DNA of 64,000 bases, taken from assembly GCA_937928545.1 (NCBI GenBank), contig CALGJQ010000011.1, forward strand, positions 1 through 64,000. Direction: 5' to 3'. The notes under the pieces are model-generated. The model was not told the DNA's origin. It made no database searches and saw only the letters and a list, made by a program, of their open reading frames with translations. This DNA is from an uncultured Verrucomicrobiales bacterium (GTDB lineage Bacteria; Verrucomicrobiota; Verrucomicrobiia; Verrucomicrobiales; Akkermansiaceae). Positions 25,107-26,860 of this stretch are shown one piece after another; position 1 is the stretch's first letter, and the number at the start of each line of letters is the position of its first letter. The position numbers and the translations under genes were made by a program.

Positions 25107-25703
25107 ATGAAGTTATTAGCCCTATTTCTCTACTTTTTCCAACTGTTGATTTCGGAAGGGAGCTACCGTGAGCATGGTAGATTTAAGGCTTCAGAAGTCG
25201 GGGAAAAAGCTGCGGAAATTTTAAAGCAATTCGATCCTAATCCTGAGCTCAAGGGTATTTCTGTATTCTCGTCTCGGCGTATTCTCCCCAAAAAATGGAG
25301 CGGCCAAGAAGTCCGTATCACCAGAAAGAAAAATGGCAGCCTCGATTTAACTTTCCAACTTGGAGTCGAACAAATCACAAAGGGCTACATTGATTCCAAT
25401 TTTGAGAATCGTAGAGAAATACACTTATTTTCATTTCTATCAATCAAGGGAGCAAAAATTCGATGGCATCTAGATGGAAACCTCCAAGTAGCTCTCGCTA
25501 AAAAAACTGCAAATTTCTCTCCAATGGCGGGATTCACCATGAAAATTCAAAACAAAACCATTTTTGAACTAGCGACATCTAAAGCGTTAAAAAGTAGAAA
25601 AGAAGTTTCAGTTAACATCTGGCAAGATGACGCCGCCATAAAGCTCATCCAACTGTATTTTTCTAAAAACCCCAAAGATGAGCTTCTTTGGGAAGACGAT
25701 TAA
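25107..25703 (+). CDS. Hypothetical exported protein
   Basis: The 198-residue protein is not recognised. A short hydrophobic N-terminus (MKLLALFLYFFQLLISEG) suggests a signal peptide. The rest is mixed alpha/beta and basic, with beta-like segments such as GQEVRITRKKNGSLDLTFQLGV and KIRWHLDGNLQVALAKK; no catalytic motif stands out. It starts 13 bases after pyc but with clearly AT-richer codons than pyc, and it abuts the repeat region, so it may be an independently acquired gene. Its stop is 8 bases from the first MITE-like repeat. Confidence 0.6.
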   Translation: MKLLALFLYFFQLLISEGSYREHGRFKASEVGEKAAEILKQFDPNPELKGISVFSSRRILPKKWSGQEVRITRKKNGSLDLTFQLGVEQITKGYIDSNFENRREIHLFSFLSIKGAKIRWHLDGNLQVALAKKTANFSPMAGFTMKIQNKTIFELATSKALKSRKEVSVNIWQDDAAIKLIQLYFSKNPKDELLWEDD

Positions 25704-25710
25704 TCAATCT

Positions 25711-25937
25711 CCCGCCCCAAAGGGGCAAACCAACGTAACCCAGCGGCAGAGCGAAGCGCCGCCCTGGGTTCCCCGTCCGCAGATGACATGAGCCCTGTAG
25801 GGGCGATCTAACCTCCCGTGAATTCTATCACCCCGAGGTCACCCCACCATTAGACAGCCCCTACAGGGCTCCCCATTCTTCGCGTCCTGGAACCCCGGGC
25901 GATGCCCGAGGCTACGTTAGATTGCCCCCTTGGGGCA
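25711..25937. repeat. MITE-like repeat, copy 1
   Basis: The unit is about 225 bases. Its ends, 25713-25740 and 25910-25937, are imperfect inverted repeats of about 28 bases sharing the core TACGTTrGwTTGCCCC. Inside is a perfect 14-base inverted pair, AGCCCTGTAGGGGC and GCCCCTACAGGGCT, and a smaller stem CCCAGCGGC...GCCGCCCTGGG. The whole unit can fold on itself. A near-identical copy lies 368 bases downstream. No ORF is present. A degenerate further end-like sequence lies at about 25943-25969. Confidence 0.85.
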
Positions 25938-26078
25938 TGTGAACCTACGTTAATTTTCTCCGTTGGGCCCTGGCATTTTCCGAAACTGATGTGAACATTT
26001 CCGTGATCATTCAAAAATGCCCTCCGTCGCCCAACCAATGAATTCACCAGTCACCATTCCAAATTCACCATTCCTTCC

Positions 26079-26305
26079 CCCGCCCCACCGGGGCAAACCA
26101 ACGTAGCCCAGCGGCAGAGCGAAGCGCCGCCCTGGGTTCCCCGCCCGCAGATGACATGAGCCCTGTAGGGGCGATCTAACCTCCCGTGAATTCTATCACC
26201 CCGAGGTCACCCCACCATTAGACAGCCCCTACAGGGCTCCCCATTCTTCGCGTCCTGGAACCCCGGGCGATGCCCGGGGCTACATTAGATTGCCCCGTTG
26301 GGACG
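26079..26305. repeat. MITE-like repeat, copy 2
   Basis: Copy 2 matches copy 1 almost base for base with an offset of 368; I see differences at only about a dozen positions, mostly at the ends. Inverted ends are 26081-26108 and 26278-26305. The internal AGCCCTGTAGGGGC / GCCCCTACAGGGCT pair is unchanged. The close match means recent duplication or gene conversion. The transposase-like gene at 26408 follows about 100 bases later. Confidence 0.85.
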
Positions 26306-26345
26306 CAGGGACTACGTTGGATTGCCCCTTTGGGACGCGGGAACC
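26306..26345. repeat. Extra terminal-repeat unit next to copy 2
   Basis: Directly after copy 2 a second right-end unit is present (GACTACGTTGGATTGCCCC at 26310-26328, continuing TTTGGGACG). It gives a short tandem of about 32-base units adjoining the transposase gene. This could be the remains of another copy or part of the element end recognised by the enzyme. Confidence 0.6.
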
Positions 26346-26407: not shown

Positions 26408-26860
26408 ATGCCTCAATCCCTCGCGAACATCTACATCCACCTGATCTTCTCGACCAAATCCCGGCATCCCTTCCTCACCGATTCCATCCGCCCGAATCTC
26501 CACGCCTACCTCGCCACCGTCGGCAAAACAATCGACTGGCCCATCATTCTCGTAAATTCCGTCGAGGACCACGTCCACATTCTCCACCGCCTCTCCCGAA
26601 CCACCACCATCGCCAAGGCCGTCGAAGAATTCAAAAAATCGACCTCCAAGTGGCTCAAACCTCAATCCCCCGACCTCGCCAAATTTTCATGGCAAGCCGG
26701 CTACGGCGCCTTCTCCCTCAGCGAATCCCAACTCGACTCCGTCACCGCCTACATCCAGAACCAACGCGAACACCACCGCAGCAAATCCTTCAAAGAAGAA
26801 TTCCGCGACTTCCTCACCAAAAACAATCTCACTTTCGACGAAGACCACGTCTGGGATTGA
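26408..26860 (+). CDS. IS200-like / REP-associated tyrosine transposase (RAYT-type)
   Basis: The 150-residue protein begins at the ATG at 26408 (MPQSLANIYIHLIFSTK). It carries the HUH nuclease motif as DHVHILHRL near residues 57-65 and a candidate catalytic tyrosine in AYIQNQREHH near 117-126, the two landmarks of Y1 transposases of the IS200/COG1943 type. Length suits this small family. No tnpB accessory gene is adjacent. Inverted-repeat arrays lie immediately upstream and related palindromes occur in pyc, as expected for a REP-associated enzyme. The frame looks intact, so the gene may be active. Distinguishing a stand-alone IS200 from a RAYT would need genome-wide repeat counts. Confidence 0.88.
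   Translation: MPQSLANIYIHLIFSTKSRHPFLTDSIRPNLHAYLATVGKTIDWPIILVNSVEDHVHILHRLSRTTTIAKAVEEFKKSTSKWLKPQSPDLAKFSWQAGYGAFSLSESQLDSVTAYIQNQREHHRSKSFKEEFRDFLTKNNLTFDEDHVWD

Follow-up and report, generated by a model that had tools for sequence, protein, structure and literature searches.

Mirrored three-hairpin repeats beside a Y1 transposase gene in a Verrucomicrobiales genome: probable gene-less forms of a REPIN-like HUH element

In an uncultured Verrucomicrobiales bacterium, two near-identical stretches without a gene of their own lie just upstream of a transposase gene, and they raise the question of what they are and which enzyme, if any, would move them. The window analysed here is a stretch of 64,000 nucleotides in which an earlier, sequence-only reading had taken the two stretches for MITE-like elements moved by an enzyme acting in trans. 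Comparison with related genes and genomes indicates that the window copies are most probably gene-less, REPIN-like forms of a three-hairpin HUH/Y1 element, presumably mobilised by the neighbouring Y1 enzyme or a relative of it.

Anatomy of the window elements and the adjoining gene

The repeat search of the window returned a direct repeat (D1) at 25708-25934 and 26076-26302, 227 nt each, 96% identical and at a spacing of 368, in agreement with the two units of about 225 bp and the extra end unit described earlier; repeats and end unit together are a real feature, far beyond chance. On close reading, each copy opens with a series of three hairpins (a-b-c), which its second half repeats in mirror order (c'-b'-a'), so that the nested symmetry reported before stands as a mirrored arrangement, with the refinement that each half is made of three separate small hairpins. 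The imperfect inverted ends and the internal inverted pair were likewise recovered, the former as the outer arms of each copy, which are imperfect inverted repeats, and the latter, GAGCCCTGTAGGGGC...GCCCCTACAGGGCTC, as part of a 22-nt inverted pair of 91%. Hairpin a is GCCCC, a 3-nt loop and GGGGC; hairpin b is built around CCCAG...CTGGG, its 5' foot being GTAG or GTAA; hairpin c is GCCCT, a 3-nt loop and GGGGC, followed by GATCTAA. The end unit pairs with 26075-26109 at 83% (inverted pair I1, repeat family D2). The features are as follows, with arm scores from R1, a covariance model trained on three-hairpin arms at other loci.

25708-25943, no strand: element copy 1, gene-less mirrored pair a-b-c / c'-b'-a' (direct and inverted repeats; arms by R1)
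25711-25814, plus: copy 1 left arm a-b-c (R1 42.9 bits, E 1.7e-9)
25714-25726, plus: copy 1 hairpin a, GCCCC-AAA-GGGGC (sequence)
25739-25768, plus: copy 1 hairpin b, long form, 5' foot GTAA, with GTAG in the other three window arms (sequence, alignment)
25792-25804, plus: copy 1 hairpin c, GCCCT-GTA-GGGGC then GATCTAA (sequence)
25847-25939, minus: copy 1 right arm c'-b'-a' (R1 51.2 bits, E 1.3e-11)
25857-25869, 25893-25911 and 25924-25936, minus: copy 1 right-arm hairpins c', b' and a'
26076-26307, no strand: element copy 2, 96% identical to copy 1 (repeat search)
26079-26182, plus: copy 2 left arm (R1 43.5 bits, E 1.2e-9)
26082-26094, 26107-26136 and 26160-26172, plus: copy 2 left-arm hairpins a, b and c
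26215-26307, minus: copy 2 right arm (R1 53 bits, E 4.2e-12)
26225-26237, 26261-26279 and 26292-26304, minus: copy 2 right-arm hairpins c', b' and a'
26309-26343, minus: extra end unit, a lone a'-type hairpin (26324-26336) plus an ACGTAG-like side (D2, I1)
26408-26860, plus: Y1 (HUH) transposase, IS200-like, 150 aa (PF01797 E 5.3e-26; NF033573 E 3.9e-18)

Across the 64-kb window, R1 at E<=0.01 marks the four element arms only, the end unit scoring weakly (12.5 bits), and an Rfam scan of the window gave no match. The proposal that a unit folds as one large hairpin holds at the level of predicted folding: copy 2 with the end unit, folded as DNA, reaches -80.7 kcal/mol against -45.8 +/- 3.9 in shuffles (z -9.0), and copy 1 folded as RNA gives z -9.2 against shuffles. 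Neither copy contains a convincing ORF, as had been stated, and the two could stem from local duplication. The interval separating pyc from the elements holds a 198-aa open frame (25107-25703) that matches nothing in Pfam or NCBIfam.

The transposase gene begins 64 nt beyond the end unit. Its protein carries the motifs DHVH, WQ and YIQNQREHH, and H55, H57, Y115, Q119, H122 and H123 are invariant in 14 aligned sequences, an alignment from which one locus (L056) was left out. By motif and length it fits TnpA_Y1 subclass 1.2 as set out in the motif table of the Y1 survey (Quentin 2018, PMC6006769): DH[IV]H, WQ, Y---Q--HH and about 148 aa, together with few copies per genome and low identity between them. 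The Y1 family has 18 matches in this genome; at E<=1e-20 the window protein has three copies, the other two 46% and 39% identical to it, and at the same threshold a match is present in 64 of 145 genomes of the host's family. In a profile comparison, the solved structures closest to it are those of IS200-type transposases, that of IS608 among them.

The three-hairpin arm at related Y1 genes

The flanks of related Y1 genes were taken at 91 gene loci as part of all matches (30 loci from the genome-wide protein search and 60 more stretches were fetched); 90 had flank enough for pairing and parsing, the partial gene L106 being kept out. A locus's own upstream flank, compared with the reverse complement of its own downstream flank, scores a median of 67, against a median of 19 and a 99th percentile of 53 for mismatched pairs, and the own pair ranks first in 53 of the 90 loci. 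With a strict parser for three hairpins, 39 of the 90 upstream flanks and 37 of the 90 downstream ones show the pattern, as compared with 42 of 3600 shuffled sequences and 3 of 165 distant stretches.

The hairpins are maintained by compensatory change. In alignment A1, which comprises 42 arms hand-picked from 78 parsed with irregular or doubtful ones left out, 98.3% of cells are paired, a percentage biased by the pre-selection of arms for hairpins; the variety of pair types is less biased by it. Changes on both sides occur in 16 of 18 stem pairs, and the covariation score is 0.704 versus 0.194 in shuffled and at most 0.115 in slid alignments. Stem sequences vary between loci, yet change as Watson-Crick pairs (723 Watson-Crick versus 20 G-T cells), and the scarcity of G-T cells hints that the folded molecule may be DNA rather than RNA. 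Among the constant bases, AG at the foot of hairpin b is present in 42/42 arms and an A at a fixed place after hairpins a and c in 36/42 and 40/42, respectively; GTAG at the b foot occurs in three of the four window arms but in only 4 of the 42, so that a REP-type GT[AG]G foot is not a feature of the family.

The association was then measured with R1 at 80 named loci, the best 80 of 569 confirmed stretches from a species-genome scan, a sample that leans to close relatives of the window protein because the best were taken; one of the 80 was also a training locus, so the set is largely independent. Among these best 80 of 569, an inward-facing arm lies within 200 nt upstream in 65, downstream in 63 and on both sides in 56; 24 lack one or both inward arms within that distance, and one has no arm at all in that range. 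Reverse-facing arms were found upstream in 18 and downstream in 17 of the same best 80 of 569. Going by their record labels, the 56 two-arm loci within this best-80 sample comprise 25 from Verrucomicrobiota, 17 from Planctomycetota, 3 from Acidobacteriota, 2 each from Hydrogenedentota and 'Deltaproteobacteria', 3 unlabelled, and one each from Lentisphaerae, Fibrobacteres, Kiritimatiellota and the proteobacterium Nitrotoga. Further afield, R1 matches the upstream flank of a Bacteroidota plasmid gene of Persicobacter (44% identity), whose downstream flank contains an arm of similar form, and Bernardetia (35% identity) gave no R1 match. On the Bernardetia plasmid (L313), short inverted tandem hairpins stand on both sides of this more distant Y1 gene in place of three-hairpin arms and are perhaps a two-hairpin variant. 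R1 found nothing at 15 stretches (43 kb) around other Y1 matches of the host genome. At one locus, L045, a single Y1 gene is flanked by an array of four arms upstream and four downstream, about 223 nt apart; the arm search that showed this array gave 278 matches, and these were kept out of the by-position tallies.

The window gene, by contrast with most of these, is without inward arms: the comparison of its two flanks gives a score of 17, rank 63 among the 90, and upstream of it stand only complete gene-less pairs and the reverse-facing end unit. The arms most like the window elements belong to the five genes whose proteins are closest to that of the window (mean 50.6 versus 25.1 for the rest, permutation p 5e-5, with the cut at five set after the ranking was seen). 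Over all loci, apart from two set aside for a stop or a short frame, protein and arm similarity are correlated (Spearman 0.28, permutation p 0.001); for the window protein against all others, identity shows no correlation with the likeness of the arms to copy 1 (rho 0.08, p 0.48). Given the missing inward arms and the missing correlation for the window protein, the neighbouring enzyme is the likely, rather than the proven, mover of the window elements in trans; the earlier call for an enzyme in trans thus gains a plausible Y1 gene next door, and we infer its action.

Dispersal, empty sites and target duplications

The prospect of further copies in the genome, raised by the sequence-only reading, was borne out by 13 BLAST matches and by R1, which gave at least 37 matches at E<=1 and at least 23 below 1e-3 with 150 of 452 candidates scored. 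Gene-less mirrored pairs found by R1 outside the window lie at C55:9314-9543, C11:109689-109878 and C43:1634-1843, with one more inside the 370-bp family described below, and two mirrored pairs, on contigs C2 and C31, enclose a gene. Among the best 80 of 569 loci, 19 hold 24 gene-less pairs; two loci, L259 and L291, resemble that of the window gene in having such a pair on the upstream side and lacking an arm downstream. In a complete genome (G131), R1 gave at least 59 matches at E<=1e-3 with 150 of 1924 candidates scored, and nine of 11 fetched gene-less pairs form one family at nine places with 72-92% pairwise identity; the same search gave 4 matches in genome G098. A second arm type, with TTGGCC stems, is dispersed in the host genome at C1:46679, C48:37518, C66:3929, C14:5257, C44:34522 and C11:109689, and also flanks a Y1 gene (L078) in a genome of the same genus (G121).

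Each of the 15 arm sites looked at in the host genome has, no more than 75 nt away, the 3' end of an open frame of 80 codons or longer, a count given with no null model, and several stand between converging frames. Such placement, together with strong predicted folding, would suit static structured elements that serve gene expression, for example as terminators, attenuators or stabilisers of mRNA, and take no part in mobility. We consider this very unlikely, given that stem sequences change wholesale between loci, that the arms are placed inward on both sides of one transposase class, that their presence is lineage-specific, and that G-T pairs are few and an Rfam match is lacking.

The lineage-specific presence is seen in the occupancy of sites in relatives, although absence may also reflect loss. 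The element at C11:109689 is absent in G065, where the flanks are 84-85% identical and 9 nt lie between them against 224 here, and in G072, where 2 nt lie between; the flanks align only up to 6-27 nt from the element, so the exact boundary bases cannot be fixed. At the C55 site, both flanks with a shorter interval occur in five of ten relatives (G086, G102, G121, G008, G021), and the right flank was not found in the other five. The empty sites envisaged earlier were therefore found for these two sister elements. For the window copies no single-copy empty site can be drawn, because G072 lacks the whole block, with pyc almost adjoining the glyoxalase gene, and G121 and G147 hold remnants: in the former a decayed c-centre-c' and a decayed Y1 gene in the same place, in the latter decayed remnants. 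No excision or insertion event was seen, and the evidence of movement consists of the empty sites in relatives.

The lack of target duplications speaks against the original label of MITE in its usual sense, in which a DDE insertion sequence shortened by deletion retains its terminal inverted repeats and duplicates its target on moving. Mirrored ends, the missing gene and two near-identical copies would all accord with it, and a family of this kind does exist in the same genome. That family is gene-less, 370 bp long and 90-98% identical between copies (L161:797-1166, equivalent to G000:C13:93796-94165, and on C5, C17, C24, C42, C52, C57 and C75), with ends CAGGGC...GCCCTG that look like those of the ISAs1 family; junctions of the family found at separate contig ends match up as 10-bp duplications, in four pairs. 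It holds a-b...b'-a' arm parts inside, and its internal C13 copy seems to be two sites joined in assembly. The window copies, however, lack CAGGGC ends, the arms are common to Y1 genes and not to a DDE gene, and a check for target-site duplications found none beyond chance at 14 of 14 three-hairpin elements. A DDE-MITE reading of the window type was rejected on these missing duplications, and the label is, in our estimation, highly improbable.

Relation to known systems and proposed mechanism

The closest analogues of a gene-less, three-hairpin Y1 element are the REPIN/RAYT (TnpA_REP) systems (Nunvar 2010, PMC2817692; Bertels and Rainey 2011, PMC3116915). As those papers describe them, the two share a Y1 gene between inverted palindromes, a likeness that holds here for 56 relatives among the best 80 of 569 and not for the window gene, as well as dispersed, intergenic, gene-less inverted doublets, clusters beside the gene and a palindrome kept by compensatory change. 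They differ in that an arm here has three hairpins instead of one REP, the constant foot is AG instead of GTAG/GTGG, the tyrosine motif is of class 1 type without NP, and arm counts are at least in the tens, incompletely counted, versus over 100. That the window copies are canonical REPINs of a class 2 RAYT is accordingly the least probable of the readings: the inverted palindrome pair, GTAG at the b foot in three of four window arms, the nearby Y1 gene and the dispersed gene-less pairs speak for it, but the protein has Y---Q--HH (Y115-IQN-Q119, the Q invariant in 14/14) and not Y---NP, its nearest solved relatives are IS200-type transposases, and the arms have three hairpins and share AG.

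Other Y1 systems offer partial matches. In its account of subclass 1.2, the survey of Quentin (2018, PMC6006769) lists these enzymes, mainly from Cyanobacteria and Bacteroidetes, without REP and generally without terminal IS200-like structures. In contrast, most loci sampled here are from Verrucomicrobiota and Planctomycetota, and arms flank most of the genes (both among the best 80 of 569); the two-sided arms contradict the listing, and the absence of terminal structures is a listed observation on the subclass rather than a defining protein trait. TIRtrons (TIRYT) share Y1 genes flanked by inverted repeats, some of them double-palindromic and some in dispersed families, though the TIRtron account drawn on here (Di Nocera 2013, PMC3733652) describes no three-hairpin arm, and their proteins are placed in class 2 subclasses by the survey (PMC6006769). 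With IS200/IS605 elements such as IS608 and ISDra2, the window system has in common a class 1 Y1 enzyme, hairpin ends and no target duplication; those insertion sequences are described as being without terminal inverted repeats (PMC2817692), unlike the mirrored three-hairpin arms and gene-less pairs seen here, and the low identity of the genome copies likewise departs from class 1.1. The literature consulted, mostly listings and abstracts with few subscription papers, yielded neither three-hairpin arms at Y1 genes nor partner repeats of subclass 1.2.

On this basis, a mechanism can be proposed for the three-hairpin element. In the full form, a TnpA_Y1 gene like those of subclass 1.2 stands between inward-facing a-b-c arms; the short form would have lost the gene and kept both arms with a short centre. 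In single-stranded DNA the arms would fold, the Y1 enzyme next door or a related one would recognise their hairpins and cut near them through its tyrosine, and the short element would be moved or copied and rejoined without target duplication. A candidate guide is the AG that never varies at the foot of hairpin b, on its 5' side, and a candidate cut site is the YYAT-like motif after hairpins a and c. Work on IS608 and REP provides the analogy for folding, hairpin recognition, foot-guided tyrosine cutting and duplication-free rejoining, as outlined in PMC8266576. The mechanism class is known; the three-hairpin architecture and the enzyme partner are new.

The role of Y1 subclass 1.2 had been left open, with no partner DNA listed. 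The three-hairpin arm, which stands beside most of the genes sampled (the best 80 of 569), provides a specific candidate substrate, so that rules of binding, cutting and guiding become directly testable. We lean slightly towards a broader view, in which subclass-1.2-type Y1 enzymes would constitute a second, independent REPIN-like world across several phyla, with a three-hairpin code particular to each enzyme, stems diverging with the enzyme, dispersed gene-less copies being maintained, an AG foot as guide and a YYAT-like tail as cut site. The findings suggest that REPIN-like gene-less populations extend beyond class 2 (RAYT) enzymes, and they supply a structural signature by which a repeat found in genomes of Verrucomicrobiota and Planctomycetota can be annotated.
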